Source: Gordonia jinghuaiqii
Lineage (GTDB): Bacteria > Actinomycetota > Actinomycetes > Mycobacteriales > Mycobacteriaceae
DNA length: 64,000 bases
Direction of reading: 5' to 3'
Assembly (NCBI RefSeq): GCF_014041935.1
Contig: NZ_CP059491.1
Location: forward strand, 1,798,001 to 1,862,000
Positions 30,501 to 45,037 of the stretch are shown here, one piece after another. The notes under the pieces are model-generated. The model did no database searches and had not been told where the DNA came from. It was given only the letters and a program-made list of their open reading frames with translations. Each line of letters starts with the position of its first letter. The stretch's first letter is position 1. A program made the translations under genes and the position numbers.

Positions 30501-31253
30501 TCAGAAGTTGCCCTTCGCGGCCCAGCCGCCGTCGACCGGATAGATCTCGCCGGTCAGGAAGTCACCCTCACGCATGAGGTAGGCGACCATGGATGCGATC
30601 TCCGACGGGAGCCCGAGACGGCGCACGATGTGCGCGTTGGCATTCGCCTGCCTCATCTCCTCGGTGATGTCGGCCAGGATCGGGGTGTCGATGGTGCCCG
30701 GGGCGATCGCGTTGATCAGGATGTTGTGCGGGCCGTACTCGTAGGCGGCCTGTTTGGTCAGTCCCACGACGCCGCCCTTGGCCGCCGAGTACGAGGCCAG
30801 GTTCGGCAGACCGCGCAGAGCGGCCATCGACGAGATGTTGACGATGCGCCCACCGCCGTTGTCGATCATCCCGGGGATCACCGCGCGCATACCGAGCCAC
30901 ACCCCCTTGAGGTCGGTGCCGATGACGACGTCCCACGCCTCCTCGGTGAGGCCGACGACCGTGTCCTCGCTGAGCATGTTGACGACTCCGGCCACGTTCG
31001 CCAGGCAGTCGATCGACCCGCGGGCGGCGGTGATCTTCTCCACCGCCGCCGACCAGTCGTCGGCCACGCGCACGTCGAGGCGCAGCGACTCCGCGGAGCC
31101 GCCGTTCTCGGCGATCTCCTTGAGAGTGACCCCGCAGTCCTGGATGTCGGCGGCGACGACGTGGGCGCCGTCTGCGGCGAGACGGATCGCGGTGGCCTGT
31201 CCGATACCCTGTGCGGCGCCGGTCACGATGGCGGTTTTCCCGTTGAGAGACAT
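30501..31253 (-). CDS. Short-chain dehydrogenase/reductase (island)
   Basis: A 250-aa classical SDR. It has the nucleotide-binding TGAAQGIGQ (about 11-19), NVAG motif (ANVAGVV), and catalytic Ser, Tyr and Lys in NISSMAAL and YSAAKGG. It ends with the usual DGGWAAKGNF. It would oxidise a secondary alcohol or 3-hydroxyacyl-CoA with NAD(P). I place the start at ATG 31253; the longer open frame to 31640 is antisense to nothing useful and overlaps the upstream dehydrogenase. It is last in the leftward unit with the dehydrogenase and the kinase, a set like LvaD in the levulinate pathway. Confidence 0.9.
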   Translation of the reverse strand: MSLNGKTAIVTGAAQGIGQATAIRLAADGAHVVAADIQDCGVTLKEIAENGGSAESLRLDVRVADDWSAAVEKITAARGSIDCLANVAGVVNMLSEDTVVGLTEEAWDVVIGTDLKGVWLGMRAVIPGMIDNGGGRIVNISSMAALRGLPNLASYSAAKGGVVGLTKQAAYEYGPHNILINAIAPGTIDTPILADITEEMRQANANAHIVRRLGLPSEIASMVAYLMREGDFLTGEIYPVDGGWAAKGNF

Positions 31254-31303
31254 GGTGTTCACTTTCTGGTGGGGGACGGTGGGGAGAGTGGGGAGAGCGA
31301 CGG

Positions 31304-32590
31304 TCAGGGCTGCTCGGCGAGCAGGTCGGCGAAGCGACGCTGCGCGGCCTCGCGACGGGTGGGGATGTGTTCGGACGGCCGGTCGTCGGCCGGACGCGTG
31401 TACCCCTTCAGGTACTGACGGGCGACGCTGTCGCGATGCACCTCGTCCGGCCCGTCGTACAGGCGGGCTGCACGCGCCGCGCGGTACATCGACTCCAGCG
31501 GGAGATCGGCGCTGTAGCCGAGGGAACCGTGTACCTGCAGGGCGCGGTCGATGACGTCGTGCAGGATCTTGGCGCCGAAGAACTTGATCAGCGCGATGTC
31601 CTTGCGGGCGGCGGCCGTACCCTCTTCGTCGATGCGCCACGCGGCGTGCAGCGTCATGAGCCGAAGGGCCTGGATCTCGGCGGCCGAGTCGGCGATGAAG
31701 TTGCGGACGGTCTGCTTGTCGGCGAGGACCGAGCCGTGTGCGTAACGGTAGGTGGCCCGTTCACACATCATGTCGAAAGCGCGGCTCGCCTGACCGATCC
31801 AGCGCATGCAATGGTGAATCCGGCCGGGGCCGAGCCGCTTCTGGGCGATCAGGAAGCCGTCGCCCCGGTTTCCGAGCAGCGCCGAGTCGTCGACTGTGAC
31901 GTCGCGCAGCACGACCTCGCAGTGCGAGCCGTAGGTATGTGGACGCGGGCGGGGATTCTCCACCGAACCGATGTCGCGGACGACGTCGAGTCCCGGTGCG
32001 CCGATGGGGATGATGAACTGCGATGTCCGGCGGTGGCGTTCGGCGTCGGGATCGGTGACGGCGACGACGATCATGAAGTCGGCGGTGGCGGCGTTGCTGA
32101 TGAACCACTTGTGGCCGTTGAGGACCCACCCGTCGCCGTCGCGAACGGCGGTGGTGGTGAGGTTGGTGGGATCGGCGCCGGCATTGTCGGGTTCGGTGAG
32201 CGCGAACGAGGAGTAGTACTCACCGGCCAGGAGAGGCCGGAGCCAGCGGCGCTTCTGCTCGTCGGTCCCGACCGCCGCGAGGATCTCGCAGTTTCCGGAA
32301 TCCGGTGCCTGGCAACCGAAGACGAGCGGCCCGTACGGGGTCGACCCCAGGATCTCCTGCATCAGGCCGAGTTTCACCTGGCCGTATCCCTGACCACCGA
32401 GTTCGGGATCGAGGTGCGCCGCCCAGAGGTCGTTGACCTTGACCTCTTCCTGCAGCGGCGCGATCGCCCTGCGCAACTGATCCCAGTCGAGATCCAGTGT
32501 CTCGAGGGGGAAGACCTCGGTGCGGACGAAATCCCGCATCCAGTCGAGTTTCTTCTGGAATGCGGGTTCGGTGGAGAAATCCCAGGCCAT
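31304..32590 (-). CDS. Acyl-CoA dehydrogenase, ACAD10/11-like
   Basis: A 428-aa flavoprotein of the acyl-CoA dehydrogenase family. Landmarks are SSFALTEPDNAGADPTNLTT (FAD/substrate loop), the signature RLGPGRIHHCMRWIGQA, and LQVHGSLGYSADLPLE. The place of the usual catalytic Glu (YEG) reads LYDGPDEVH. The GPGRIHHCMR and DGPDEVH motifs are characteristic of ACAD10/11 and LvaC, which act with an APH-type kinase to remove a hydroxyl from 4-hydroxyacyl-CoA. The kinase gene lies directly upstream, 107 bp away. ATG 32590 has a ggag RBS. The substrate is inferred only. Confidence 0.88.
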   Translation of the reverse strand: MAWDFSTEPAFQKKLDWMRDFVRTEVFPLETLDLDWDQLRRAIAPLQEEVKVNDLWAAHLDPELGGQGYGQVKLGLMQEILGSTPYGPLVFGCQAPDSGNCEILAAVGTDEQKRRWLRPLLAGEYYSSFALTEPDNAGADPTNLTTTAVRDGDGWVLNGHKWFISNAATADFMIVVAVTDPDAERHRRTSQFIIPIGAPGLDVVRDIGSVENPRPRPHTYGSHCEVVLRDVTVDDSALLGNRGDGFLIAQKRLGPGRIHHCMRWIGQASRAFDMMCERATYRYAHGSVLADKQTVRNFIADSAAEIQALRLMTLHAAWRIDEEGTAAARKDIALIKFFGAKILHDVIDRALQVHGSLGYSADLPLESMYRAARAARLYDGPDEVHRDSVARQYLKGYTRPADDRPSEHIPTRREAAQRRFADLLAEQP

Positions 32591-32697
32591 TGGTGGTGCT
32601 CCGTTTCTGTGGGGGTCGGGTGCGGTGCGACGGGTCAATCGTTCTCGGACAACGCCGACCGTTCGGCCGCGTCGAGGACGGCAGGGCGTGCCGGCGG

Positions 32698-33771
32698 TCA
32701 GGACCCGTCGATGACGTGTCGGGCCCGGCCGAAGAGGCCTTCGGCGTAGCGGTGCAGACGTTCGCCGACGTCGCGGGGTGCCTTGCCGTCACACGACCGG
32801 GCGTAGGTGCCTTCGAGGATGATGCCGAGTTTGAAACTCGCGAGAACCGTGTACCAGTCCAGCGCGCTCAGATCGCGGTCGGAACGCTCGGCGTACCTCG
32901 CGACGATCTCGCTCCTGGTGGGCAGGTCGCCGGCCAGCCCTAGGGCGCTCTCGTACAGGTCGGGCCGGCGGGCGCTGTCGGGCCAGATGGCCAGCAGCAC
33001 ACCGAGATCCAGCAGGGGATCGCCGACGGTGGCCATCTCCCAGTCGACGATCGCCGCGACCTCGGGCCGACGGTGATCGAACAGGACGTTGGCCACGTGA
33101 TAATCACCGTGCAGCAGTCCCGGCCGGAAGTCGCCGGGACGGTTGTCCTCGAGCCAGCCGGCCACGCGTTCGAGATCACCGAACGTGCCACCGGGATATC
33201 CGGGTGTCGAGGCGAACCGTTCGTGTTCGGCCAGCCACCGGGGCACCTGCCGTTCGAGGAAGCCCTCCGGCTTGCCGAAGTCGCGCAGGCCGACGGCGGT
33301 GTGGTCAACCGCCGCCAGTCCGGCCAGCGCGTCGATGAGAGCGTACCCCATGGCCTTTCGTCCCTCGGGAGTGGCGGCGTAGGCGGCGGGCAGCATCTCG
33401 GCGGCGTTGAACCCGTCGACGGGCTCCATGAGGTAGAAGGTGGCACCGAGCACGGCGGGATCGTCGGTGCCGGCGACGAAGCGGGGATGGGCGACGTCGG
33501 TGGCTCTCAGTGCCGCCAGCAGTGTCATCTCCCGCGCGATGACCGCATTCGACTGGGGCCGGAGGTGTCGGGGGCCGCGACGGAGCACGTATCTGCGGCC
33601 GCCTCGGCTGACGGTGACCATGATGTTCTGTGTGCCGCCGCGGAGGGGCTCGAGGTCGATCGTGTCACCGCCCGGCAGTCCCTGGTCGTCCATCCATCCC
33701 GCCAGGGCATCGGGGTCCACCGGCAGTCGGGCGGCCGGGGCGGGGCGGTCGGGGATCGTGCTGCGAGCCAT
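32698..33771 (-). CDS. APH-family kinase (LvaA/ACAD10-type)
   Basis: A 357-aa phosphotransferase with an aminoglycoside-phosphotransferase fold. The catalytic loop HGDYHVANVLFD (221-232, D223) and metal-binding IVDWEMATVGDPLLDLG (241-257, D243) are intact, and the N-lobe LRGGTQNIMVTV resembles the ATP loop. Homologues next to, or fused with, ACAD10/11-like dehydrogenases phosphorylate hydroxyacyl-CoA (LvaA in Pseudomonas, ACAD10/11 in animals) rather than antibiotics. A copy of the TTGTGG-N4-CCACAA repeat lies 55-70 bp before its start, so it probably opens the kinase-dehydrogenase-SDR unit. Confidence 0.87.
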   Translation of the reverse strand: MARSTIPDRPAPAARLPVDPDALAGWMDDQGLPGGDTIDLEPLRGGTQNIMVTVSRGGRRYVLRRGPRHLRPQSNAVIAREMTLLAALRATDVAHPRFVAGTDDPAVLGATFYLMEPVDGFNAAEMLPAAYAATPEGRKAMGYALIDALAGLAAVDHTAVGLRDFGKPEGFLERQVPRWLAEHERFASTPGYPGGTFGDLERVAGWLEDNRPGDFRPGLLHGDYHVANVLFDHRRPEVAAIVDWEMATVGDPLLDLGVLLAIWPDSARRPDLYESALGLAGDLPTRSEIVARYAERSDRDLSALDWYTVLASFKLGIILEGTYARSCDGKAPRDVGERLHRYAEGLFGRARHVIDGS

Positions 33772-33825
33772 GACTCGAACCTATGGCGATCGGTTGCCGG
33801 GGAGAACCGTCGCCGCCACGGGCCG

Positions 33826-33841
33826 TTGGAGGAATCCACAA
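33826..33841. promoter_or_regulatory. Inverted-repeat operator copy 3 (degenerate)
   Basis: TTGGAGGAATCCACAA matches 13 of 16 positions of the copy at 42172-42187 (minus-strand orientation TTGTGGGAACCCACAA). It lies 55-70 bp upstream of the APH-kinase start codon, the same distance as copy 2 from its gene. Confidence 0.5.
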
Positions 33842-33853
33842 AGCGCGTGAGCG

Positions 33854-35749
33854 TCACTGACCGGCGAGATCGAGGACCTGAAAGGCCATCTTGGCCGACA
33901 GGAGGCAGTCCAGCGACGTCGGATCGCGGCGCGCGATCTCCTTGATCCGTCCCAGCCGGTACCGGATCGTGTTCTCGTGGACATCCAGTGCCGCCGCGGT
34001 GGCCTGCACCTTGCCGTCCGCGGCGACGAAGGCACGCCAGGTGGCCAGGAGGGTGCCGTCGTCGTGTTCGCGGACCGTCGCGACGAAGGAATGCGCGAAG
34101 CGCACCGCCTCCTTCACGTGACCGCTGGAGACCACCACCCGGAACAGTCCGAGTTCGTCGAGGGTCATCACCCGTTGGTCCCAGCCGAAAGATTTTGCGA
34201 TCGAACCCATCTCGCGCAGGTCGCGGTGGGCGTGCGGATAGTCGACGGCCTGGCGGCAGATCTCGGAGATCAGCGTGGCGCCCAGGGAGAGCTCGGTACC
34301 GAGCCGGTCCCGGATCATCGACAGGTGGTCGCGCACCCGTCCGACCTCGTCGGGGTCGTCGGAGTCGAGGCGGACCATGACGACCACCGCTCCCGGCAGA
34401 CGCACCGCCGGCGGCGGCGGGATCGACATCACCGCGGCGAACGTGCGCGTGACCAGGGACTGGATCGCCGATGCCGTCAGCTTGTCGGTGGCGTCGTCGA
34501 CGGTGAACCGGACGAGGACGTGCGGGTAGGTCAAGTCGATGCCGAACTGCGGTCCGCGCCGGATGAGATGCTCCTTGTCGCGGCTGTTGCGCAACAGGTC
34601 CGACAGGTAGTCGTCGCGGGCCTGGCCCTCGGTCTCGATCTGACGGCGTTCGGAGAGCATCTGCAACGCCAGGACCGTGGCACCCCGCTCGGCGATGTTC
34701 GCATCGAGTGCCTCCAGGCTCCGGCCGACTTCGACGATGCCGAGGAAGCCGGACTGCTTGCCTTCGATCACCATGCGGCACATGAGGTGTCGGCGTCCGA
34801 GTCCGACGGCGAGCTGAGCGGGGACGATCGCCGACGGCGTGCTCACCGACAGCTGCGCCAGTGTCTGGCGAACCGAGCTGGTGGCGCGCACCTTGGCACT
34901 CATGACCGGCGGTGCGGTCAGCTTCAGCGCCTCGGGGGCGGCCCAGGCGAGCACCTCGAACGAGTTGTTGTAGAGAACCACAGGCTTGGCCGACAGCTCC
35001 GACAACAGTTCGACGACCCGGTGGATGTTGGCGCCCTCGAGGACCGCGCTGGTCAGCCGGTGGTGGACGTCGGCGAGGTATGCCAGGGTCGCGTTGTTCC
35101 GGGCGATCTCGGCGGCCTGCCCGCGCAGGCGGGTGTTGAGCATGGCCTGGCTGATGAACAGCGCGCTGAGCCGTGCGAACAGTTCGGCCACCTCGATGTC
35201 CTCGCGCGTGAACTCGTGTTCGCGGCCGCGACTGTCGACGAAGATCAGGCCGATGACCGCATCGTCGAAGGTGAGCGGGACGCCGAGCATCGCGCGGACA
35301 TCCCAGTGCGTCATCGTTCGGCGGTGGGGACGCGGGTCGTTGAGCGCGTCGGCGATCACGACGGGCGCGCGGGTGTTGATGACCTCCTGGCTGAAGAGGT
35401 CGCCGTCGAAACCGGAGATCTGCTTCTTGACCGCCTGGGTGATGTCCCCGGCTTCCTTGCAGAACCCGGCGGCGCCGCGATAACTGCCGTTCGCGTGGCG
35501 CAGGTAGACCGAGCAGCGGGTGACGCCCAGGAGCGCACAGAGCTTCTGGCCGACCAGGCTGAGCAGATCCTCGAGTCTGGTGTCGGTGATCGCCTCGGTC
35601 GTGATCTCGGCGAACGCGGCGATGACGTCGCGTTCCCTGCTGGGCACGTGGGCCGCGCCGTCGACCGCGCCGGAGGAAGTGCCGGCACCGGAAGCGGTGC
35701 CGGATCCCGTAGCGGTGCCGGTCCGGTTCACGATGGACGTCATCCGCAC
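33854..35749 (-). CDS. GAF-PucR/CdaR-type transcriptional regulator of the island
   Basis: A 631-aa regulator. A GAF sensor domain (about 35-200: LLSLVGQKLCALLGVTRCSV, VRAMLGVPLTFDDAVIGLIF) is followed by a middle region and a C-terminal PucR-type helix-turn-helix (about 565-620: KVQATAAALDVHENTIRYRL). A Gly/Ala/Thr-rich stretch (9-25) precedes the GAF domain. PucR/CdaR proteins typically sense a small catabolic ligand and act as activators. Being the only regulator in the island, it is the best candidate to bind the repeated 16-bp palindrome; that link is inference. The start may be ATG 35749 or 35743. Confidence 0.87.
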   Translation of the reverse strand: MRMTSIVNRTGTATGSGTASGAGTSSGAVDGAAHVPSRERDVIAAFAEITTEAITDTRLEDLLSLVGQKLCALLGVTRCSVYLRHANGSYRGAAGFCKEAGDITQAVKKQISGFDGDLFSQEVINTRAPVVIADALNDPRPHRRTMTHWDVRAMLGVPLTFDDAVIGLIFVDSRGREHEFTREDIEVAELFARLSALFISQAMLNTRLRGQAAEIARNNATLAYLADVHHRLTSAVLEGANIHRVVELLSELSAKPVVLYNNSFEVLAWAAPEALKLTAPPVMSAKVRATSSVRQTLAQLSVSTPSAIVPAQLAVGLGRRHLMCRMVIEGKQSGFLGIVEVGRSLEALDANIAERGATVLALQMLSERRQIETEGQARDDYLSDLLRNSRDKEHLIRRGPQFGIDLTYPHVLVRFTVDDATDKLTASAIQSLVTRTFAAVMSIPPPPAVRLPGAVVVMVRLDSDDPDEVGRVRDHLSMIRDRLGTELSLGATLISEICRQAVDYPHAHRDLREMGSIAKSFGWDQRVMTLDELGLFRVVVSSGHVKEAVRFAHSFVATVREHDDGTLLATWRAFVAADGKVQATAAALDVHENTIRYRLGRIKEIARRDPTSLDCLLSAKMAFQVLDLAGQ

Positions 35750-35810
35750 GGCCTCCTCACCACCTCAAGCCCATGGTGGTCCTCACAATACCAATCGGCT
35801 GTGACCGACG

Positions 35811-37085
35811 TCATGCCCCGGAGGTCTCGGCCAGTGCATCGCCGTGGAGCACGTGGCCCATTCGTTCCTGCTTGGTCCGTAGGTAGCGGACGTTGTGGGG
35901 GGTCGGCACCGTCGGCATCACGACGCGCCCGACGATCTCGAGGTCGTGCCCCCCGAGTCCGCCGTACTTGGCCGGGTTATTGGTGATGAGACGTACTCGT
36001 CGGATACCGAGATCGGAGATGATCGCGGCACCTGTGCCATAGGTACGGGAGTCCACCGGCAGGCCGAGGGCGGTGTTGGCGTCGACGGTGTCGAGTCCCT
36101 GCTCCTGGAGTGCGTAGGCACGGATCTTGTGGCCGAGCCCGATGCCGCGTCCCTCGTGTCCGCGCAGGTAGACCACAGCGCCGCAACCTTCTTCGGCGAT
36201 CGCGGCCAGGGCCTGCTCGAGTTGGGCGCCGCAGTCGCAGCGGAGGGAGCCGACGATGTCGCCGGTGAGGCACTCGCTGTGGACCCGGACCAGCGCCCCT
36301 TCGCCGGACGCGCCGGCGGCGGCCACGTCACCCATGACGAGTGCGAGATGTTCGGTGTCGTCGATGTCCGAGCGGTAGGCGACGGCGCGGAAGTCGCCGA
36401 AGAGGGTGGGCATCGCGGCGGTGGCGATCTGCCGCACGAACGTCCCGGCGGCGGCCCGGTGGGCCACCAGGTCGGCGATACGCAGCACCGGCAGTCCGTG
36501 GTGGGCGGCGAAGGCGAGGAGATCCTCGCCCCGGCGCATCGATCCGTCCTCGGCGATGATCTCGCCGATGACCCCCACGTCGCCTGCCCCGGCCATCGTG
36601 ACCAGGTCGACAGCGGCCTCGGTGTGGCCGGCGCGGGTGAGTACGCCTCCCTCGCGTGCCTGCAGGGGGAACACGTGACCGGGACGGCGGAGGTCGGTGG
36701 CGGCGGTGTCGTCGGCGGCGAGGGCCCGCACCGTCAGTGCCCGGTCGCGGGCGGAGACGCCGGTGCCGGCGTCGTGGTGATCGACGGTGACGGTGAAGGC
36801 GGTGCCGTGCGCGTCGCGATTGTCGGCGACCATCTGGGGCAGGTCGAGGCGGCGGGCCCGCTCGGCGGTCATCGGCGCGCAGATGATGCCGGTGGTGTGG
36901 CGGACGAGGAAGGACATCTGTTCGTCGGTGATGGACGCCGCCGAAGCGATGAGATCGCCCTCGTTCTCGCGGTCGTCGTCGTCGACCACGACGACGAATC
37001 CGCCGGCGGCGATCGCCGCGACGGCACGCGCGACGGACTGCGTCGAGGCCTCGGTGCCGATGGGGGTCGGGGTGGTGTTCGTCAT
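35811..37085 (-). CDS. ribBA: Bifunctional RibBA (DHBP synthase / GTP cyclohydrolase II)
   Basis: A 424-aa riboflavin-biosynthesis enzyme. The N-terminal RibB half has the acidic loop VDDDDRENEGDL (about 35-46) and THTEAAVDL-type region (AGHTEAAVDL). The C-terminal RibA half has the zinc-binding SECLTGDIVGSLRCDCGAQL and RGHEGRGIGL motifs. It makes the two precursors that feed riboflavin, hence FMN. Its ATG start overlaps the flavin-reductase stop as ATGA. No other rib gene is nearby, so this is probably a second, pathway-dedicated copy supplying FMN to the monooxygenases. Confidence 0.94.
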   Translation of the reverse strand: MTNTTPTPIGTEASTQSVARAVAAIAAGGFVVVVDDDDRENEGDLIASAASITDEQMSFLVRHTTGIICAPMTAERARRLDLPQMVADNRDAHGTAFTVTVDHHDAGTGVSARDRALTVRALAADDTAATDLRRPGHVFPLQAREGGVLTRAGHTEAAVDLVTMAGAGDVGVIGEIIAEDGSMRRGEDLLAFAAHHGLPVLRIADLVAHRAAAGTFVRQIATAAMPTLFGDFRAVAYRSDIDDTEHLALVMGDVAAAGASGEGALVRVHSECLTGDIVGSLRCDCGAQLEQALAAIAEEGCGAVVYLRGHEGRGIGLGHKIRAYALQEQGLDTVDANTALGLPVDSRTYGTGAAIISDLGIRRVRLITNNPAKYGGLGGHDLEIVGRVVMPTVPTPHNVRYLRTKQERMGHVLHGDALAETSGA

Positions 37086-37579
37086 GCGACCTCGAATGCT
37101 CGGTGGGTGCCGAACACCCGGTCGTGGTAGGTCAGGGGCGCGGCGGGCGTCACGCCGGTCTCGATGACGGTGCCGAGTGCGACGACGTGATCGCCGCCGT
37201 CGACGAGGGTCTCTGTCGTACACGCCAGCCAGCCCGACGCGCCGCCGAGGCGGGGGAGACGTGCAGACGCCGACCAGTCGACCCCGTCGAACTTTTCCGC
37301 GCCCTTTCGGGCGAACCGGAGCGCGACGTCGGCCTGGTCGTGGGCGAGGACATTCAACCCGAAAGCGCCGGTGCGGCGGATGATCGCCAGGAGGTCGGAG
37401 CCGCGGTCGAGTGACACCAGGATCATCGGCGGCCCCATCGACAGCGACGTGAAGGCGCTGACCGTGGTGCCGTGTGGGCGTTGTCCGTCGAAGGCCGTGA
37501 CGACCGCGACGGGCGTACACACCCGGGCCATCACCTCCCGGAACCCGAGGGCCACCTGGTGGACGGCGGTGTCGCTCAT
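37082..37579 (-). CDS. Flavin reductase, HpaC/DIM6-type
   Basis: A 165-aa FMN-binding split-barrel protein of the flavin reductase family, with the conserved TVSAFTSLSMGPPMILVSLD segment (flavin site) and GAFGLNVLAHDQ, and a C-terminal YHDRVFGTHRA. It would use NAD(P)H to supply reduced FMN to the three luciferase-like monooxygenases of the island. ATG 37579 has an excellent aaggagg RBS; the longer frame to 37681 runs into a terminator. It is translationally coupled to ribBA. Confidence 0.92.
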   Translation of the reverse strand: MSDTAVHQVALGFREVMARVCTPVAVVTAFDGQRPHGTTVSAFTSLSMGPPMILVSLDRGSDLLAIIRRTGAFGLNVLAHDQADVALRFARKGAEKFDGVDWSASARLPRLGGASGWLACTTETLVDGGDHVVALGTVIETGVTPAAPLTYHDRVFGTHRAFEVA

Positions 37580-37636
37580 CGCTCCTCCTTCACTTCTGGC
37601 GATGCCGGTGGGATTCTCCGGCGCCGTTGGAATGGG

Positions 37637-37675
37637 ACCGCTGCGGCGCCGTGAGAACCTCGGCGCCGCAGCGGT
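37637..37675 (-). terminator. Terminator downstream of monooxygenase 1
   Basis: A perfect 14-bp stem, accgctgcggcgcc (37637-37650) with ggcgccgcagcggt (37662-37675), and an 11-nt loop, lies 17 bp after the leftward stop of the LLM gene. It separates that unit from the flavin reductase-ribBA unit. Confidence 0.75.
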
Positions 37676-37692
37676 GTTCATTGTCCGACCGG

Positions 37693-38784
37693 TCAGACGC
37701 CCGCGGGTGTCCGTGCGGTCATCTTGTGCAGCTCGGGGACGACCTTCTCGCCGAACAGCTTCAGGCTCTTCTCCGCCTCGTCGAAGGGGAGTCCGCCGAA
37801 GGAGAAGGCCGCGTTGGGAAGGAAGTCGCCGATGAGCTCGTGGCGGTGGGCGTACTTCTCCACGATCTGCTCGGGAGTGCCGTAGACGTTGGCCTCGACG
37901 TAGGCGTCGGCGGCCGCTTCCATACCGGCCTCACGGATCATGTCCGCGCCGGCCTGATAGGTCTCGTAGCCCTTGGTCTCCCGCCAGTGCTTGCCCGCGA
38001 AGTCGTAGTGCTTGATGACCGACAGGAAGTACCGGTTGATGTGCTCGTAGGCCAGGCGCCGGGCCTCCTCGGCGTCCTCGTGGCAGATGACGAAGTCCTG
38101 GATGACCGGCGGGCCGGGCTCGGTGCCCTGGGCGTCGCGGAACATCTGCCTCCATCCGTTGATCGCTTCCGCGTGCTTCTCGAACGGGAACTGCATGAAG
38201 GTCATCATCTGCACACCGAGGTCGGCGACCACGGGTACCGAATCCGGCGACATCGCGGCAGCGAAAAGTCTTCCGTCCCAAGAAGTGTTCGGGTTGGGCG
38301 CGGGCCGCAGTGCGATCTCGGGCTGCGGGTACATCGGACCGTCGCCGGAGACGACGCCGGTGCGGAGACCGCGCAGCACCATCTCGGCGGCCTCGTTGAA
38401 GCGAGGGCGGGCCTCCTCCATCGGGATGCCGAAGGCCTCGTACTCCATCTTCGCCAGACCGCGTCCCATGCCGAGAAGTACACGGCCGCCCGACATCTGG
38501 TCGAGCATGATGGCCTTCTCGACCACGCGCAGCGGATCGTTCCACGGCAGGATGGTGGCACCGATGCCCAGCATGACCTTCGAGGTGCGACCGGCGAGGT
38601 AGGCCAGGATGGCGAAGTTGTCCGGGCACATCGAGTAGTCGTCGAAGTGGTGTTCGGCCGACCAGACCGAATCGAAACCGGCCTTTTCGGCCAGTACGCC
38701 GAGCTCGAGGTCGTGTAAGAAGACCTCCTCGTCGCTGACGTTGTCGTGGTAGTTCTGGAAGACGAGCAGTACGCCGACATCCAT
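37693..38784 (-). CDS. Luciferase-like FMN-dependent monooxygenase 1
   Basis: A 363-aa TIM-barrel flavin monooxygenase of the LLM class. The N-terminal FDSVWSAEHHFDDYSMCPDN motif, GGRVLLGMGRGLAKMEYEAFG and PDSVPVVADLG segments are typical. It needs reduced FMN from a separate reductase and inserts oxygen from O2. Family members include alkanal monooxygenases and type II Baeyer-Villiger enzymes; the substrate cannot be read from sequence. It is preceded by the SnoaL-like gene with a 61-bp gap and followed by a terminator. Confidence 0.92.
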   Translation of the reverse strand: MDVGVLLVFQNYHDNVSDEEVFLHDLELGVLAEKAGFDSVWSAEHHFDDYSMCPDNFAILAYLAGRTSKVMLGIGATILPWNDPLRVVEKAIMLDQMSGGRVLLGMGRGLAKMEYEAFGIPMEEARPRFNEAAEMVLRGLRTGVVSGDGPMYPQPEIALRPAPNPNTSWDGRLFAAAMSPDSVPVVADLGVQMMTFMQFPFEKHAEAINGWRQMFRDAQGTEPGPPVIQDFVICHEDAEEARRLAYEHINRYFLSVIKHYDFAGKHWRETKGYETYQAGADMIREAGMEAAADAYVEANVYGTPEQIVEKYAHRHELIGDFLPNAAFSFGGLPFDEAEKSLKLFGEKVVPELHKMTARTPAGV

Positions 38785-38845
38785 GTCATTGGCTCCTTCG
38801 GTGAACGGGATCGGATTTCGAGGGTTTCTGGCTGGCGAGGGGACT

Positions 38846-39283
38846 TCAGTCGAGGAAGACCGCGCGGGTGTGCTCGGTGTCGAGAAACTCCTTGACCTCG
38901 TGGATCTTTCCGTCGCGGACGACGAAGACGAAGTGGTAGAGGTTGTTGTAGACCCGTCCGTTCGCCATCTCCGAATACGACTCGGTCTCGACGGCGACGC
39001 GGTCGCCCTCGGCGGTCCAGGCCAGCGGCTTCAGTGCGATGGCACCGGTTTTCGTGGTGGCGGAGAGACCGGCCAGCATCGCGCCGAACTCCTCCTTGTT
39101 CTTCGTCCCGGAGATGCCGTCGATGGTGCCGCCGACCCACCAGGTGGCGTTCGGCGCCAGGAAGGACAGGATGGCGTCGACGTCGCCGCTGGAGAACACC
39201 TCCATGAATTCCGCGACCAGAGCCTTGTTCTGCTGCGCGGTGATCTGCGGGTCTGGGTCGAGGCGCGCTGTGCTGGTTGCCAT
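38846..39283 (-). CDS. SnoaL/ketosteroid-isomerase-like protein
   Basis: A 145-aa NTF2-fold protein. ALVAEFMEVFSSGDVDAILSFL, WWVGGTIDGISGTKNKEEFG and HFVFVVRDGKIHEVKEFLDT are typical of SnoaL_2/limonene-epoxide-hydrolase-like proteins, which act as small-molecule isomerases, hydrolases or cyclases. ATG 39283 has an aaggagg RBS. It begins a two-gene unit with monooxygenase 1, and operator copy 1 lies 104-119 bp upstream. The role is inferred from the fold only. Confidence 0.85.
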   Translation of the reverse strand: MATSTARLDPDPQITAQQNKALVAEFMEVFSSGDVDAILSFLAPNATWWVGGTIDGISGTKNKEEFGAMLAGLSATTKTGAIALKPLAWTAEGDRVAVETESYSEMANGRVYNNLYHFVFVVRDGKIHEVKEFLDTEHTRAVFLD

Positions 39284-39386
39284 CGAAGGCCTCCTTCTTA
39301 CGGTCACCCACGAGGGCGAGAAACTGTGTGCAACAACGACGTTATGAGGCTGTGTGGTGTGAGTCACCCCCTCTGGTCCGGTCCTT

Positions 39387-39402
39387 TTGTGGGTTGCCAC
39401 AA
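39387..39402. promoter_or_regulatory. Inverted-repeat operator copy 1
   Basis: TTGTGGGTTGCCACAA (arms TTGTGG/CCACAA, 4-bp spacer) differs from copy 2 at one position of 16. It lies in the 146-bp gap upstream of the SnoaL-like gene and monooxygenase 1. Confidence 0.7.
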
Positions 39403-39429
39403 CTCGCTGTCGTGGCCCGACGTGGCAGG

Positions 39430-40161
39430 TCACCGGTTGCCGCCGCTGAAGGAACCGAGCAGTCCTCCGTCGACCGGCACCGTGGCCCCGTACATGTAGG
39501 TCGACCCCGCCACGTCGACGATGACCTGCGCGATCTCCTCCGGACGTCCCGTGCGGCCGGCGGGAATCGACGAGACGATGCGTGCGCGCGCCCGATCGCT
39601 GAGCCCGGACGTCATGTCGGTATCCACAAAACCCGGGACGACCAGGTTGACGCGGATGTCGCGGGGAGCGAGCTCGGCGGCGAGGACCTGGGTCAGCCCG
39701 CTGAGACCGGCCTTGGCCGAGCCGTAGGCCACGTCGCCCGGAAATCCTCGAAGACCCACCACCGCACCGACATTCACGATCGATGAGCCCGGTCGGAGAA
39801 TCGGGACGGTCGCTTTGCACATCTCGAACGCACCGGTGAGATTGGTTCCCAGCACCAGATCCCACGCCTCACGACTCAGGTCGTCGACGCGGCCGCCGCG
39901 GTGGACCCCGGCAACGTTGATCAGCGCGTCGACGCCGCCGTACTCCTCCTTCACGGTGGACAACGCGCCCGCCACCGATTCGGAGTCGGTGATGTCGGCC
40001 TTGAGTTCCAGTACCTGCGCGGGATGGGTGAATGGGGTGGTGGACACGCCTCGCGCGAGAGAGACCACCTGATCGCCACGGGCGGTGACGGTTTCGACCA
40101 CCGCCCGGCCGATGCCACGGGATCCGCCGGTGACGATCCAGACCTTGGGTGCAGGGCTCAT
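39430..40161 (-). CDS. Short-chain dehydrogenase/reductase 2 (island)
   Basis: A 243-aa classical SDR with TGGSRGIGRAV (about 11-21), NVAGVHRGG, catalytic Tyr/Lys in YGSAKAGLSG and the C-terminal VPVDGGLLGSFSGGN. It probably oxidises or reduces an alcohol/ketone pair in the pathway. It overlaps the upstream alpha/beta hydrolase gene as ATGA, making a three-gene coupled unit (monooxygenase 2, hydrolase, SDR). Confidence 0.9.
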   Translation of the reverse strand: MSPAPKVWIVTGGSRGIGRAVVETVTARGDQVVSLARGVSTTPFTHPAQVLELKADITDSESVAGALSTVKEEYGGVDALINVAGVHRGGRVDDLSREAWDLVLGTNLTGAFEMCKATVPILRPGSSIVNVGAVVGLRGFPGDVAYGSAKAGLSGLTQVLAAELAPRDIRVNLVVPGFVDTDMTSGLSDRARARIVSSIPAGRTGRPEEIAQVIVDVAGSTYMYGATVPVDGGLLGSFSGGNR

Positions 40162-40958
40162 TGCTTCAGGAATCCCGTCAGTTCGGCGAGGTACCGGTCA
40201 CGGTCCTCGAGGAAGGGGGCATGCCCGCACCCGTCGAAGGGCACCAGGCGCGCCCGCGGGTTCAGGTCGAGGACGGCCTGGGCGCCGGCGAAGGGGACGA
40301 ACGCGTCGTCGCGCCCGTGGAGCAGCAGGATCGGGACCTCGAGGCCGCCGAGTTCCTTGCGCAGATCGGTGCGGGCGAGGTCTCGCAGCGAGTCGTCGCC
40401 GATCGGGCCCATCTCCAGGAACATTCCCCAGATCCAGTCGAGCACATCGGAACTCGGTGGGGTCGCGCACACGGCGGCGGCGACGCCGCGGAAGGTGTCG
40501 GCGCGGTTGGCGGCGGCGCCGGCCAGCACGCCTTCGACGTCGTCGGATGTTCCGCCGTAGGGCCAGTCGTCGGTGGCGGTGTACCGGGGCGACGCACCGC
40601 CGGTCAGGACCAGGCCGGCGGCCCGTGAGCCGAGCGACGCCGCGGCGGCGGTGGCCACCGCACCGCCGAGGGACCAGCCGTTGACGACCGGGGACGACAG
40701 CCCGAGGTGCTCGACCACCTTGACGACGTCGGCGGCCAGTGCCCCGATGGACACGTCCTCGAAGTCCTTGTCCGAGCGACCGCAACCACGCAGGTCGACG
40801 AGTACGACCTCGTGACCGGCGGCCTTCAGCGCCGGGGCAGTGGTGTCCCAGCAACGGGTGTTGGCAGCCCAGCCGTGGATCAGAACCACCGGACGGGCGT
40901 CACCGCGGTGATGCTCGAAGTAGATCCGGCGATCGTTCTCAACCGCGAGATAGCTCAT
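40158..40958 (-). CDS. Alpha/beta hydrolase (island)
   Basis: A 266-aa hydrolase. The nucleophile elbow NGWSLGG contains S96; the oxyanion HGWAANTRCW follows VVLIHG; the acid is in LLHGRDDAFVPF and the His in FDGCGHAPFLEDRDRYL. It resembles the MhpC/lactonase/haloperoxidase branch. A natural role after a Baeyer-Villiger-type oxygenase is opening the resulting ester or lactone. Its start overlaps monooxygenase 2 by 20 bp and its stop overlaps SDR 2. Confidence 0.9.
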   Translation of the reverse strand: MSYLAVENDRRIYFEHHRGDARPVVLIHGWAANTRCWDTTAPALKAAGHEVVLVDLRGCGRSDKDFEDVSIGALAADVVKVVEHLGLSSPVVNGWSLGGAVATAAAASLGSRAAGLVLTGGASPRYTATDDWPYGGTSDDVEGVLAGAAANRADTFRGVAAAVCATPPSSDVLDWIWGMFLEMGPIGDDSLRDLARTDLRKELGGLEVPILLLHGRDDAFVPFAGAQAVLDLNPRARLVPFDGCGHAPFLEDRDRYLAELTGFLKQ

Positions 40959-42117
40959 GGAACTCTCCTTCTTCGTCGAACTCGATGTCGAAATATCTGT
41001 CGGTGGCAGTGGCCGGTTCCTCGTCGCGCAGGGTGCGAGGGACGAGTGGTGGTGCGTCGGCGAAACGTGGCATGACGTGCTCGGCGAGCAGTTCCATCGA
41101 CCGCACGACGTGCTCGTGGGGCATCCCGCCGAACCGCATCCAGCAGATGAGGTGATCGAGGCCCGTCTCCTCTCGGAGGATCTCGATCTCGCGGACGAGT
41201 CCGTCGGGTTCGCCGACGTAGCACACGCCGCCCTCGCGCAGGCCGGTCAGCGACATCGCGCCTTCGGCCGCGGCTTCGGCCAGGGCGGCGTATCGCTCAT
41301 AGCCCGCGGGTGCCTGCGCACCCTGGGGGACCGCCGCCATCACGTTGTCGAAGTACCACTCGAGGCAGGGCCGGGCCTGTTCCACCGCCCGCGCATCGTT
41401 CTGCGCCAGGTGAATCTGCCAGTTCATCGGGAAGTCGAGGGAGAGCGGATCGCAGCCGCGGTGCATGAGTGTGCGTTTGGCGCCGACCACGAATCCGTTC
41501 AGCTCGGGCAACGTCATCAGCGTCGGGGTCACGAGCATGTTGTGCCCGTGGTCGGCCACCAGGTCGAAGGTCTCGGGACTGATGGACGCCACATAGATCG
41601 GCGGCGTCGGCTGTTGCAGCGGAGCCGGTCGGCAGTCGACGGCATCGATGTGAAAGTGCTTGCCGCGGAAGGTGTACGGCTCACCGACGGCCTTCGTCCA
41701 GAGTCCGGTGACGATCTGGAAGGCCTCGTCGAAGACCTCACGGCTGACGTCTTGTCGGTCCCCGACGCCCATCGCGCGGAACTCGTGGGGCTGGTAGCCG
41801 CGGCCTGCGCCGAAATCGAGCCGGCCGCCGGAGATCACGTCGACCATGGCGTAGTCCTCGGCGATGCGCACCGGCCAGGCGAGGGTCAGGTTGCTGACCG
41901 CGACGCCGATGCGTATCCGCGTGGTGCGGGCCGCGATGGCCGCCGCGGCCACCTGTGGCGAGGGCATCGAGCCGTAGGCGCTGCCGTGGTGTTCGGCGAG
42001 CCAGACCCCGTCGAATCCGAGGCTCTCGGCGATCTCGACCTGCGACAGCATCTCGTCGTAGGCCCGGCGGAAGTCCCCGTCGGGACTCTCCAACACGTAG
42101 AACAGGCTGAACTTCAC
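40939..42117 (-). CDS. Luciferase-like FMN-dependent monooxygenase 2
   Basis: A 392-aa LLM-class flavin monooxygenase. It begins KFSLFYVLESPDGDFRRAYD and carries FDGVWLAEHHGSAYGSMPSP and GGRLDFGAGRGYQPHEFRAMG. I place the start at GTG 42117; the long frame to 42192 overlaps the upstream gene. Operator copy 2 lies 55-70 bp upstream, inside the 3' end of the acyl-CoA synthetase gene. It heads a coupled unit with the alpha/beta hydrolase and SDR 2. Confidence 0.92.
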   Translation of the reverse strand: MKFSLFYVLESPDGDFRRAYDEMLSQVEIAESLGFDGVWLAEHHGSAYGSMPSPQVAAAAIAARTTRIRIGVAVSNLTLAWPVRIAEDYAMVDVISGGRLDFGAGRGYQPHEFRAMGVGDRQDVSREVFDEAFQIVTGLWTKAVGEPYTFRGKHFHIDAVDCRPAPLQQPTPPIYVASISPETFDLVADHGHNMLVTPTLMTLPELNGFVVGAKRTLMHRGCDPLSLDFPMNWQIHLAQNDARAVEQARPCLEWYFDNVMAAVPQGAQAPAGYERYAALAEAAAEGAMSLTGLREGGVCYVGEPDGLVREIEILREETGLDHLICWMRFGGMPHEHVVRSMELLAEHVMPRFADAPPLVPRTLRDEEPATATDRYFDIEFDEEGEFHELSRG

Positions 42118-42127
42118 ACTGCTGACG

Positions 42128-43780
42128 TTAGGAATCGCCGTGCGCGACCGGAATGGGAGAATCCGCGGCGGTTGTGGGTTCCCACAAATCACGGGTCCCG
42201 GCTGCCTGTTCGCGCAGCGACCGTTTGTCGAGTTTTCCGACGCTGGTGCGCGGGAGCTGCCCGACGACCACGATCAGTTCGGGCACCCACCAGCGCGGGA
42301 TCCTGGTGGCCAGCTCGTCCCGCACCGCCTCGGTGTCGAGGCCGGCGTCGCCGACGACGTAGGCGACCGGCCGCTCCTGCCAGCGCGGATGCGGGACCGA
42401 TACGACCGCCGCCTCGTGCACGCCGGGGTGTTCGAGCAGCGCCTCCTCCAGGGCAACCGAACTGATCCATTCCCCGCCGCTCTTGATCAGGTCCTTGGTG
42501 CGGTCGACGATCGTGAGGTAGCCGTGCTCGTCGATGACGCCGATGTCGCCGGTGCGCAACCAGCCGTCGTCGAACCGTTCGGGATGTTCGGCCCGGTAGT
42601 AGGCGGTGGCGACCCACGGACCCCGGATCAGGATTTCCCCGCGGCTGATGCCGTCATGCGGCATGACCTCGCCGTCGTCGACGAGCTTCCACTGCAGACC
42701 GGGTAGCAGGCGTCCCTGTTTGCGGATGTGCTCCCAGCGGCGTTCCGGGTCGTCATCGGTGAAGGCCGGGGGACGCGAGAACGTCGCCATCGGCGAGATC
42801 TCGGTCATCCCCCAACCCTGGAAGACGGGTATGCCGAGTTGCTCGAGGTCGCGGATCAGCGCGAGCGTCGGCGTCGAACCGCCGAGGACCAGCGCGCGCA
42901 GGCTGGTCAGGTCGGTCCCCGCGCGCCGCGCGTGGGCGAGCAGGTCGACCGCCACGGTCGGGACCATGCCGGTGTAGGTGACCCGCTCGGCGGCGATGAT
43001 GCCGGCGATGTGCGCCGGGGTCGGATGGGGTCCCGGCAGGATCTGGTCGGCCCCGGACATCAAGGCGGCGAACGGAACCCCCCAGGCGTTGGCGTGGAAC
43101 ATCGGGACCACCAGCAGGGCGCGGTCGCGTTCGGAGATGGCATGCCCATCGGCCAGGCAGGCCGCCATCGTGTGCAGATACAGCGACTTGTGGGAATACC
43201 CAACACCCTTCGGGGCCCCGGTCGTGCCGGAGGTGTAGCAGAGCACGGCCAGATCGTCGTCCGCCCGCGGGACGGGTGCCGCAAGTGGTTCGGCCGCCTC
43301 GATCATCGAGTCCGGCGACGGCCGGCCGGAGTCCGCGGAGCCGTCGTCGATCTGCACGACCGGCATGCCGGGGCGCTGTTCGCGAGCGTCGTCGAGGAGA
43401 TGCTCCAGTGACGGGTCGGCGAAGATCATCGTGTCGTCGGCGTGGTCGACGATGTAGGCGATCTCTGCGGGCGAGAGCCGGATGTTGATGGTGTGCAACA
43501 CCGCACCGGCCAGCGGGACCGCGAGGTAGAGCTCGAGATGGCGACGGTGGTTCCAGGCCAGGGTGCCGACCCGATCGCCCGGCGCCACGCCGCTCGCGAT
43601 CAGCGCCGAGGCCAGGCGCAACACCCGGTCGGCGTACTCGCGATAGGTGTACCGGAAGACCTCCACCCCGTCGACATGGTCGACGATCTCCTTGTCGCCG
43701 AACATGTCTCGCGCACGGTAGAGGAAGTCGGTGATCACCAGCGGGTGGGCGGACGGGCCGCCGGCCGGGTGCTCGATCAT
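42128..43780 (-). CDS. AMP-forming acyl-CoA synthetase
   Basis: A 550-aa adenylate-forming ligase with the ATP/AMP signature LCYTSGTTGAPKGVGYSHKS (about 183-202), VFQGWGMTEISPMA, DGWLRTGDIGVID, the linker DRTKDLIKSGGEWIS and the catalytic Lys in RTSVGKLDKR. It activates a carboxylic acid to its CoA thioester and would start CoA-dependent degradation of the acid released by the hydrolase. The start overlaps the monooxygenase 3 stop as ATGA. Its last codons contain the operator for the downstream unit. Confidence 0.93.
   Translation of the reverse strand: MIEHPAGGPSAHPLVITDFLYRARDMFGDKEIVDHVDGVEVFRYTYREYADRVLRLASALIASGVAPGDRVGTLAWNHRRHLELYLAVPLAGAVLHTINIRLSPAEIAYIVDHADDTMIFADPSLEHLLDDAREQRPGMPVVQIDDGSADSGRPSPDSMIEAAEPLAAPVPRADDDLAVLCYTSGTTGAPKGVGYSHKSLYLHTMAACLADGHAISERDRALLVVPMFHANAWGVPFAALMSGADQILPGPHPTPAHIAGIIAAERVTYTGMVPTVAVDLLAHARRAGTDLTSLRALVLGGSTPTLALIRDLEQLGIPVFQGWGMTEISPMATFSRPPAFTDDDPERRWEHIRKQGRLLPGLQWKLVDDGEVMPHDGISRGEILIRGPWVATAYYRAEHPERFDDGWLRTGDIGVIDEHGYLTIVDRTKDLIKSGGEWISSVALEEALLEHPGVHEAAVVSVPHPRWQERPVAYVVGDAGLDTEAVRDELATRIPRWWVPELIVVVGQLPRTSVGKLDKRSLREQAAGTRDLWEPTTAADSPIPVAHGDS
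42172..42187. promoter_or_regulatory. Inverted-repeat operator copy 2
   Basis: TTGTGGGTTCCCACAA is a perfect inverted repeat with 8-bp arms. It lies inside the last codons of the acyl-CoA synthetase gene (encoding LWEPTT) and 55-70 bp upstream of monooxygenase 2, implying an internal promoter there. Confidence 0.7.
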
Positions 43781-44820
43781 GCGTGTACCTCCTCCACGGA
43801 TGCCTCGCCGGCCAACCTGGCCCGGACCGCGGGGATGACCTTCGTGGCCAACAGTTCGATGCGTGCGCTGCCGCTGTCGACCTCCTCGCCGGGCAGCTGT
43901 GCCCAGAAGTGCACGTCCTCGATCTGCGGGGTCTGACGGAGCAGCGTCGTGAGTTCGTCGACGGCGGTGGCCGGATCCCACAGCGTGAACGACCCGGCGT
44001 CGACGAGCTGGTCGGGTTCGGTGAACTGCGGGACCGGACCGAAGGCGCCCATCTCGATGTACTGGTTGATCTGGTAGAGCGCGTGGGTGCCGATACGGGC
44101 CCACTCCCGCTCGGGATCGTCGGCGATGATCGTCCACTGGCCGGCGAAGATCCGCCCTTCCGAGCGGGGGCGTCCGAGCCGTTCGAGCGCGTCGAGATAC
44201 GACGCGTGGTGGCTGTTCTGGGTACTGAGGAACCCGTCGCCGATACGGGCCGCCCGCTCGATCGCCGGGTCGGCCATCGCGCCGACGAGGAGGTCGGGGA
44301 TGACCTCGGGTGTCGGGGTCACCGGCAGCGCCGGCTTGCGCAGGCGTTTGCCGTCGAACGGTTCGGCGGAGCCCGACCAGCACCGTCGCACGATCTCGAC
44401 CCCCTCCTCGAGCAGGCTCGGCCGGTTGATCAGCCGGCGGTCGAAGGCGGCGAACTCCGGCGCCCAGTACCCCTGGCCCACACCGAGCGAGAACCGTCCG
44501 CCGGTGAGCAGGGAGAGGGTGGCCGAGTCCTCGGCAAGGCGGATCGGATTGTGCAACGGCGACACCACCAGGTTGGTGCCGATGTTCATCGTCGTCGTCC
44601 GGTCACCGATCGCCGAGGCGAGGAGGAACGGTGACGGGGTGTAGCCGTCGTCCATGAAGTGGTGCTCGGTGAGCCACACCGAGTCGATGCCGATGGACTC
44701 GGCCCACGCGATCTGATCGAGGGTCGCGCGATAGAAGTCGCCGAACCCCCTGCCATCGGCGTTGCCGGCGGGGTTGCGGAAGTCGTACCACAGCCCGAAG
44801 CTCGCCTTCGACGTTCTCAT
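43777..44820 (-). CDS. Luciferase-like FMN-dependent monooxygenase 3
   Basis: A 347-aa LLM-class flavin monooxygenase. SIGIDSVWLTEHHFMDDGYT, GGRFSLGVGQGYWAPEFAAFD and ADPAIERAARIGDGFL are the family landmarks. It is 45 aa shorter than monooxygenase 2. ATG 44820 follows aaaggac. It is the first gene of the island in the direction of transcription and is coupled to the acyl-CoA synthetase; a degenerate operator copy lies 83-98 bp upstream. Confidence 0.91.
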   Translation of the reverse strand: MRTSKASFGLWYDFRNPAGNADGRGFGDFYRATLDQIAWAESIGIDSVWLTEHHFMDDGYTPSPFLLASAIGDRTTTMNIGTNLVVSPLHNPIRLAEDSATLSLLTGGRFSLGVGQGYWAPEFAAFDRRLINRPSLLEEGVEIVRRCWSGSAEPFDGKRLRKPALPVTPTPEVIPDLLVGAMADPAIERAARIGDGFLSTQNSHHASYLDALERLGRPRSEGRIFAGQWTIIADDPEREWARIGTHALYQINQYIEMGAFGPVPQFTEPDQLVDAGSFTLWDPATAVDELTTLLRQTPQIEDVHFWAQLPGEEVDSGSARIELLATKVIPAVRARLAGEASVEEVHA

Positions 44821-44902
44821 TGCATGTCCTTTCGACGCCAGTGTGGTCGATGTCACTCTCGATGATGGATGTGATCGGCGAAAGGTCGCATCGAGGTGGC
44901 TG

Positions 44903-44918
44903 TTGTCGGAAATCCCAA
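44903..44918. promoter_or_regulatory. Inverted-repeat operator copy 4 (degenerate)
   Basis: TTGTCGGAAATCCCAA matches 12 of 16 positions of TTGTGGGAACCCACAA. It lies in the 217-bp gap between the island and the divergent Rv3440c-like gene, upstream of monooxygenase 3. It is the weakest of the four. Confidence 0.35.
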
Positions 44919-45037
44919 CCGGAAAACGTCGGACAGGGAACCCGGCGGGGCCCGCCTGCGTCCAAGGTGCGGGTCTGCGACGCGGCACGGCGGGCCGGGT
45001 GGATGGGTACGATCACCGCATCGTCAGGGGGTGGGAC

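Follow-up and report, generated by a model that had tools for sequence, protein, structure and literature searches.

The gene cluster

We analyzed a stretch of 64,000 nucleotides from Gordonia jinghuaiqii (contig NZ_CP059491.1, positions 1,798,001 to 1,862,000; hereafter the window), which is part of one contig of 5,184,113 bases. Between positions 30501 and 44820 of the window lies an unbroken run of 13 genes on the minus strand, as judged from the list of open reading frames (ORFs) and from Pfam domains. In the direction of reading, the genes encode a luciferase-like monooxygenase (LLM, PF00296; LLM1 to LLM3 are numbered along the operon), a coenzyme A (CoA) ligase, LLM2, an alpha/beta hydrolase, a short-chain dehydrogenase (SDR1), a SnoaL-like protein, LLM3, a flavin reductase, RibBA, a GAF-PucR regulator, a kinase, an acyl-CoA dehydrogenase (ACAD) and a second short-chain dehydrogenase (SDR2). 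The block begins with the ATG of LLM1 at 44820 and ends with the stop codon of SDR2 at 30501. It is flanked by the glmM-HAD side on one end and by a PAF-acetylhydrolase-like gene and glmS on the other. An earlier note, made from the sequence alone, had named these gene types, their strand and this span, and ORFs and Pfam bear all of it out.

LLM1 (43777..44820, 347 amino acids) is closest to the solved chain 8cbb (97 bits). The AMP-binding acyl-CoA ligase that follows (42128..43780, 550 amino acids) exceeds the cut-off of the NCBIfam long-chain-fatty-acid--CoA ligase subfamily NF004837 (532 bits against 476). LLM2 (40939..42120; nearest solved chain 7bip, 119 bits) has an uncertain start codon, a GTG at 42192 being equally open. 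The hydrolase (40158..40958) carries a GWSLG motif and is a candidate ester or lactone hydrolase; its top NCBIfam models, BioH and PcaD, both remain below cut-off. SDR1 (39430..40161) shows the YxxxK and GxxxGxG motifs, and LLM3 (37693..38784, 363 amino acids) again has 8cbb as its nearest solved chain (130 bits). The flavin reductase (PF01613; 37082..37579, 165 amino acids from the ATG at 37579) is followed by RibBA (35811..37085), an enzyme of riboflavin precursor synthesis that exceeds its NCBIfam cut-off (NF006803, 588 bits against 569), and by the regulator (33854..35749), in which Pfam recognizes GAF, GGDEF_2-like and PucR helix-turn-helix domains. The APH-family kinase (32698..33771), the ACAD (31304..32590) and SDR2 (30501..31253; best solved relative cyclohexanol dehydrogenase 4ure, 169 bits) complete the block.

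The ORF of the NTF2/SnoaL-like protein is too long as called: an alignment of 11 sequences puts the start of the conserved protein at about 39283, which leaves 145 amino acids (38846..39283). Its AlphaFold model (pLDDT 83.8) gives NTF2-like Foldseek matches, which include cyclases, limonene epoxide hydrolases and ketosteroid isomerases. A short ORF on the plus strand (39039-39347) passed the codon-bias filter. Four pairs of neighboring genes overlap according to their coordinates (LLM1 and the CoA ligase by 4 bases, LLM2 and the hydrolase by 20, the hydrolase and SDR1 by 4, the reductase and RibBA by 4), which would fit a single transcript. Among the 13 genes, Pfam matched neither a zinc alcohol dehydrogenase nor an aldehyde dehydrogenase family, and no polyketide synthase or peptide synthetase family. 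Rfam gave no match across window positions 27000-50000.

Enzymes of the cluster

All three LLMs carry an EHH motif at the same place. Among solved structures, luciferase-type chains (8cbb, 7bip, 1brl) rank above F420 enzymes for each of them, and NCBIfam models of both the flavin mononucleotide (FMN) and the F420 kind stay below cut-off. Because the nearest chains are luciferase-type and a reductase and RibBA are linked to the oxygenases, FMN is the likely cofactor. An AlphaFold model of LLM3 (7 close sequences, pLDDT 45) was not used. The description of the reductase as HpaC-type holds loosely: a Thermus HpaC model scores 90 bits, level with StyB (90) and behind HsaB (113) and FerA (95), whereas HpaC TIGR02296 reaches 46, and all of these are below cut-off. 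That luciferase-like enzymes include Baeyer-Villiger monooxygenases, as the earlier note had stated, agrees with an LLM proven to act in this way on progesterone, in a setting without a co-located reductase (PMC12239570). Another LLM, located beside a hydrolase, is a proposed Baeyer-Villiger enzyme on anthraquinone (PMC9836352).

The kinase and ACAD genes are adjacent (31304-33771). The ACAD scores 283 bits to ACAD11 (8v3u); once the four ACAD11-like chains are set aside, the best score is 164. The Asp in the DGPDEVH motif of the ACAD aligns with a position occupied by Asn in 8v3v. The kinase, whose solved relatives are 9o56 (162 bits) and the ACAD11 kinase domain (92 bits), has HGD..N and DWE motifs; its HGD aligns with an HGA in 8v3u, where the Asp is Ala. 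To abolish the respective activities, the kinase Asp was replaced by Ala and the Asp of the ACAD by Asn (PMC12440821). This paper and a second one also describe the chemistry of LvaA/LvaC and of ACAD10/11, which act on 4-hydroxy fatty acids in mammals (PMC12440821, PMC11342911). The catalytic Asp is retained in 40 of 40 cluster ACADs (33 with DGPDEVH, 6 with DGPTEVH and 1 with DGATEVH), and every one of the 40 cluster kinases has both HGD..N and D[WF]E. By its residues, then, the pair is of the ACAD10/11-LvaA/LvaC type that the earlier note had assigned to it: an Asp in place of Glu in the ACAD, APH-type kinase motifs, and adjacency. The pair is predicted to strip a 4-hydroxyl. A role of the APH-family gene in resistance to aminoglycosides or other drugs was rejected, as the three NCBIfam resistance models listed gave only 24-26 bits against cut-offs of 205-550.

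The same genome holds three more adjacent pairs of APH kinase and ACAD genes (4105488-4107850, 1363268-1365328 and 4845400-4847480 of its contig G000:C1), which share 34-36% (kinase) and 37-47% (ACAD) identity with the cluster pair. Simple arithmetic gives a chance of about 1.5% that one of 4 pairs falls in a stretch of 20 kb around a random gene in a genome of 5.18 Mb.

Distribution

Within the family, 21 of 251 genomes have LLM3 matches at E <= 1e-60, and 13 of these, our genome included, reach at least 75% identity. Ten of the 12 relatives at this identity carry the full set of 13 genes; in the other two (L039 and L042) contig ends leave 10 and 9 genes. The order is constant but for SDR2, which in two of the four genus codes opens the block instead of closing it. 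SDR2 adjoins the ACAD in Gordonia and Williamsia and stands at the opposite end of the operon in Rhodococcus. Conserved clustering, whose lack had been named as a refutation of the earlier proposal, is thus present.

The interval between HAD and glmS could be measured in 36 of 59 Gordonia genomes (22 had no HAD match and one was split over contigs). It is 2.5-4.2 kb long in 25 genomes, 17.2-18.8 kb in nine, 13.9 kb in one and 10.4 kb in one. All nine long intervals contain the cluster, eight of them with 13 genes as single stretches and one (G265) with split or partial matches, and the 10.4 kb interval contains no cluster gene. The interval of 13.9 kb, in G262 (L220 3497-14454), holds a decayed copy in which the CoA ligase and LLM1 were not found, LLM2 is halved, LLM3 is interrupted and the remaining nine genes keep at least 0.95 of their length. 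The 13-gene block is a real unit.

Two side observations concern the block and its surroundings. A Gordonia metagenome-assembled genome (MAG) has a rearranged copy of 10 genes with LLM1 inverted (L057 5343-17700) and no glmM, HAD or glmS flanks within its 21 kb. In the window, the approximately 2 kb upstream of LLM1 (44821-46812) contain long ORFs, six of which were scanned without a Pfam match; a stretch of similar length persists at the empty site of G129, the one short interval inspected among the 25.

A scan of named genomes yielded 72 loci. By tblastn, 10-13 of the cluster genes are present in each of ten named genera. All 13 occur together in Gordonia, Williamsia, Rhodococcus, Prauserella and Amycolatopsis loci. 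Thermocrispum has 12 (without SDR2), as does Saccharopolyspora (without LLM2), Pseudonocardia has at most 11, rearranged and on both strands, and Geodermatophilus and Actinomycetospora have 10 (without LLM2, reductase and RibBA). Many single loci carry fewer genes, some owing to contig ends.

A wider scoring, with its own identity thresholds, covered 63 of 65 loci (L051-L115; L082 and L099 were dropped for split matches). LLM3 reaches at least 60% identity in 49 of the 63. These 49 loci contain PucR in 45 cases, LLM1 in 44, the hydrolase in 43, the CoA ligase in 39, SDR1 in 36, SnoaL in 35, the kinase in 35, the ACAD in 35, SDR2 in 33, RibBA in 21, the reductase in 17 and LLM2 in 16. In the 14 loci with LLM3 below 60% the count is 0 for each of the other cluster genes. 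The co-occurrence of kinase and ACAD with LLM genes, which had been suggested as a check, is therefore seen (35/49 for each gene, 0/14 below the threshold). Among the 38 untruncated loci (at least 20 kb), 30 have a kinase or an ACAD and 28 have both. The flanks of 15 wider clusters revealed no common substrate marker: 78 of the 99 listed flank ORFs were scanned, and no family occurred in more than 4.

The cluster also resides on large plasmids, in R. rhodochrous GD02 and in Rhodococcus sp. ZPP, each copy with 12 annotated genes and a gap of 1.2 kb at the place of LLM2, and a plasmid of Rhodococcus sp. PD04 has LLM1, LLM3 and the kinase. The Rhodococcus with plasmid copies come from compost, soil and wastewater. 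On pGD02.2.1, a beta-lactamase call of 141 bp (L227 7970-8110) is too short to work and is probably a prediction artefact.

Partial versions of the arrangement occur elsewhere. A mini-cluster on a plasmid of R. qingshengii CX-1 (L229 4738-14288) combines an acyl-CoA carboxylase, a kinase (32% identity), an ACAD (36%), a helix-turn-helix regulator, an SDR, an LLM (46%) and a hydrolase; tblastn found no match between its regulator and the PucR regulator of the window. The genome G036 (L046) has the same layout of kinase, ACAD, SDR and LLM. A plasmid of an ant-associated Pseudonocardia (L230 2233-21393) has an LLM (41%), a second LLM, a phosphotransferase-family gene, a CoA ligase, a hydrolase and RibB, together with two genes annotated as lactonase families (AHL-lactonase-family and SMP-30-family). 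The CX-1 and Pseudonocardia clusters appear to repeat parts of the logic of the pathway proposed below and would fit lactone chemistry. On a plasmid of Sphingomonas sp. JE1 (L233 838-17112) a kinase (51%) and an ACAD lie with SDRs, CoA ligases, an NTF2-like protein and an acyl-CoA carboxylase; no LLM is annotated there.

Phylogeny

We built trees of the ACAD (60 rows, 40 from clusters), the kinase (62 rows, 41 from clusters) and LLM3 (74 rows, 54 from clusters). Duplicates were merged, rows that were short or had a stop within the stretch were left out (L099, L168 and L125 for the ACAD; L082, L099, L229, L046 and L048 for LLM3), and rows from outside clusters were drawn from a limited set of genomes.

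In the ACAD tree the cluster sequences form four groups with non-cluster ACADs in between. Group 1 comprises Gordonia, Williamsia, Rhodococcus and Thermocrispum, group 2 Prauserella, Amycolatopsis, Saccharopolyspora, Geodermatophilus, Actinomycetospora and P. dioxanivorans, group 3 the other Pseudonocardia, and group 4 one MAG. A single clade of the 40 cluster ACADs is rejected (approximately unbiased test, p_AU 2.3e-41), and the fewest label changes are 4. Joining the groups in pairs gives p values of 0.014 for groups 1 and 2, 0.003 for group 1 and Pseudonocardia, and 3e-37 for group 2 and Pseudonocardia, values that are too kind because the groups were named after the tree had been seen. A single clade of cluster kinases is likewise rejected (p_AU 2.4e-7, 3 label changes). 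For LLM3 one label change suffices, in 89% of bootstrap trees, although the branch of the cluster sequences is weakly supported (88/19) and the single origin is partly built in, since rows were labelled by at least 60% identity to the LLM3 of the window and not by gene content. Apparently, the oxygenase core goes back to one ancestor, and the kinase and the ACAD were exchanged or newly attached on more than one occasion. Such repeated attachment of a dehydroxylation module to an oxygenase core would support the coupling of the two that the earlier note had proposed.

Discussion

Our analysis suggests that the block encodes a catabolic pathway in which LLMs insert oxygen next to a ketone and the kinase and ACAD then remove the 4-hydroxyl that results, a reading that we give about an even chance of being right. 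An SDR would oxidize a secondary alcohol, probably alicyclic or terpenoid, to the ketone. An LLM would convert the ketone to a lactone or ester, using reduced FMN (FMNH2) from the neighboring reductase and flavin supplied via the operon's RibBA. The hydrolase would open this product, and the resulting hydroxy acid would be activated by the CoA ligase. For a 2-alkyl ketone the hydroxyl would be secondary, and would come to lie at C4 after at most one round of beta-oxidation, since one round places a 6-hydroxyl at C4. The kinase would then phosphorylate the hydroxyl, and the ACAD would eliminate the phosphate, leaving an enoyl-CoA that can enter beta-oxidation. The probable sensor of the substrate is the GAF-PucR protein. 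The argument for a 2-alkyl ring is chemical: its opening leaves a secondary alcohol, which cannot be oxidized to a dicarboxylate. The lack of zinc alcohol and aldehyde dehydrogenases among the 13 genes is as expected if the hydroxyl is not oxidized to an acid. The kinship of SDR2 to cyclohexanol dehydrogenase lends mild support. What the data show is the gene content, its conservation, the catalytic residues and the rejection of a single origin for the cluster kinases and for the cluster ACADs; Baeyer-Villiger activity, the order of the steps and the substrate are inferred.

In its widest form, the proposal is that of a widespread, undescribed actinomycete pathway in which 2-alkyl cyclic ketones, such as menthone-like terpenoids, are opened by FMNH2-dependent LLMs to a secondary-hydroxy acid, from which an ACAD11-type pair, recruited at least twice to the same oxygenase core, removes the hydroxyl for beta-oxidation. 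We put this forward tentatively and would hold it to be somewhat more probably wrong than right.

The limits of the trees given above are among several points that weigh against this reading, and duplication followed by escape from an old cluster could yield the same trees. No enzyme of the cluster is characterized. The kinship of the LLMs to the type II Baeyer-Villiger enzyme 3,6-diketocamphane monooxygenase (4uwm) is weak (22-29 bits), and LLM chemistry also covers hydroxylation, epoxidation and aldehyde oxidation (PMC7661421). In eight of the 38 untruncated loci neither a kinase nor an ACAD is linked to the cluster. Two of them, L085 and L112, have identical LLM3 sequences, and of these two L085 was taken further; of the resulting seven genomes, five have a kinase at 50-53% identity elsewhere and two have none above 39%. 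No ACAD match occurs in the 20 kb around those five kinases, and one of the five stretches (L248) contains an LLM with 37% identity to LLM3. No Actinomycetospora locus has the reductase, RibBA or LLM2, and most Pseudonocardia loci lack them as well. On the Pseudonocardia plasmid the phosphotransferase-family gene has no tblastn match to the kinase of the window, and the ACAD reaches only 24%. Finally, in the 6 plasmid records inspected out of 130, kinases at 47-56% identity occur in catabolic clusters of the CoA type where the PLSDB gene tables, which are incomplete, list no LLM, so that the kinase module is of wider use. The earlier idea of an oxygenase-to-hydroxyacyl-CoA pathway is partly supported: the clustering, the luciferase-type structures nearest to the LLMs, the residues of kinase and ACAD and the apparently repeated attachment speak for it, and the weak kinship to diketocamphane monooxygenase and the eight loci without kinase or ACAD speak against it.

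One could also argue that the lower half of the pathway works as in the lva operon. The CoA ligase would activate a 4-keto acid, an SDR would reduce it to 4-hydroxyacyl-CoA and the kinase and ACAD would finish, with the LLMs making the keto acid by hydroxylation, epoxidation or ring cleavage of a kind other than Baeyer-Villiger. We consider this rather unlikely, though it is the alternative that fares best. The CoA ligase, SDR, kinase and ACAD are enzyme types of the Lva system, among them LvaE, LvaA and LvaC (PMC12440821, PMC11342911). LvaD and LvaB are further members of the lva operon. SDR2 adjoins the ACAD in Gordonia and Williamsia, and the diversity of LLM reactions (PMC7661421) would leave room for such an oxygenation. 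However, in Rhodococcus SDR2 lies at the other end of the operon, neither a further small gene nor a sigma-54-type regulator is present among the 13, and a 4-keto acid alone leaves three LLMs and a hydrolase unexplained.

A second alternative is that the operon detoxifies hydroxylated or peroxidized lipids or reactive ketones with broad-range LLMs and does not serve growth on one compound. The mammalian ACAD10/11, which handle 4-hydroxy fatty acids (PMC12440821, PMC11342911), would offer a precedent. Yet the cluster is patchily present at one site in Gordonia and is carried on plasmids, which suggests an optional growth substrate, and we think detoxification improbable. Still less probable, to a degree that we would be surprised to see it hold, is the biosynthesis of a secondary metabolite, with the LLMs and the SnoaL-like protein as tailoring enzymes that modify an acyl-CoA product. 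PuwE, which we take to be a biosynthetic enzyme, is among the solved relatives of the LLMs, and the SnoaL-like protein matches polyketide cyclases, among others, in its fold, but the 13 genes include no polyketide synthase or peptide synthetase family, the kinase and ACAD11 form a degradative pair, and copies lie on large plasmids of Rhodococcus from compost, soil and wastewater. That unrelated genes are neighbors by chance is refuted, although ACAD genes are abundant (29 matches at E <= 1e-20 in our genome) and LLM, SDR and CoA ligase genes likewise in such genomes, by the 13 genes found together in 10 of 12 relatives, by at least 10 in ten genera with altered order and by the pattern at the Gordonia site.

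We thus return to oxygen insertion by LLMs followed by dehydroxylation, and to how such a pathway would compare with known systems. The lva operon of Pseudomonas putida likewise brings together a CoA ligase, an SDR, an LvaA-type kinase and an LvaC-type ACAD, with catalytic residues in common with ACAD10/11; our cluster adds three LLMs, a reductase, RibBA, a hydrolase and a SnoaL-like protein, and its regulator is PucR. LvaB and LvaR belong to the full lva set. This set is not complete in our cluster, where the regulator is a GAF-PucR protein and no LvaB candidate was recognized among the 13 genes, no LvaB sequence having been compared. Mammalian ACAD10 and ACAD11 consist of the same kinase and ACAD parts, with the catalytic Asp in both, whereas our cluster has two separate proteins set among oxygenases. 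Type II Baeyer-Villiger systems (the diketocamphane monooxygenases and the pdc LLM of Caenibius tardaugens) use a PF00296 oxygenase that needs a separate flavin reductase in ketone catabolism, as our cluster probably would; unlike for our cluster, the excerpt on pdc names no kinase or ACAD step. The lux-rib operon of Photobacterium unites a luciferase-family oxygenase, a flavin reductase and riboflavin genes, and our cluster differs from it in lacking fatty acid reductase genes and in having catabolic companions. The cyclohexanone (chn) pathway leads from alcohol to ketone, lactone and hydroxy acid with a flavin adenine dinucleotide (FAD) type I monooxygenase, and the hydroxyl is oxidized to give adipate. 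The early logic would be the same in our cluster, with an LLM and phosphorylation-elimination in place of the type I monooxygenase and the oxidation of the hydroxyl.

The cluster is a new combination of known modules. As the earlier note had supposed, no description of the whole set was found in the open-licence literature among the matches listed, and none of them paired the set with a named terpenoid. If our proposal is true, it would explain the end of the breakdown of branched alicyclic or terpenoid ketones, where the hydroxyl of the ring-opened product blocks beta-oxidation. It would also mean that bacterial enzymes of the ACAD10/11 type serve in nature for more than levulinate. The LLMs would be candidate FMN-dependent Baeyer-Villiger enzymes with their own reductase and flavin supply for biocatalysis, and the block would provide a marker gene set with which to find such pathways.

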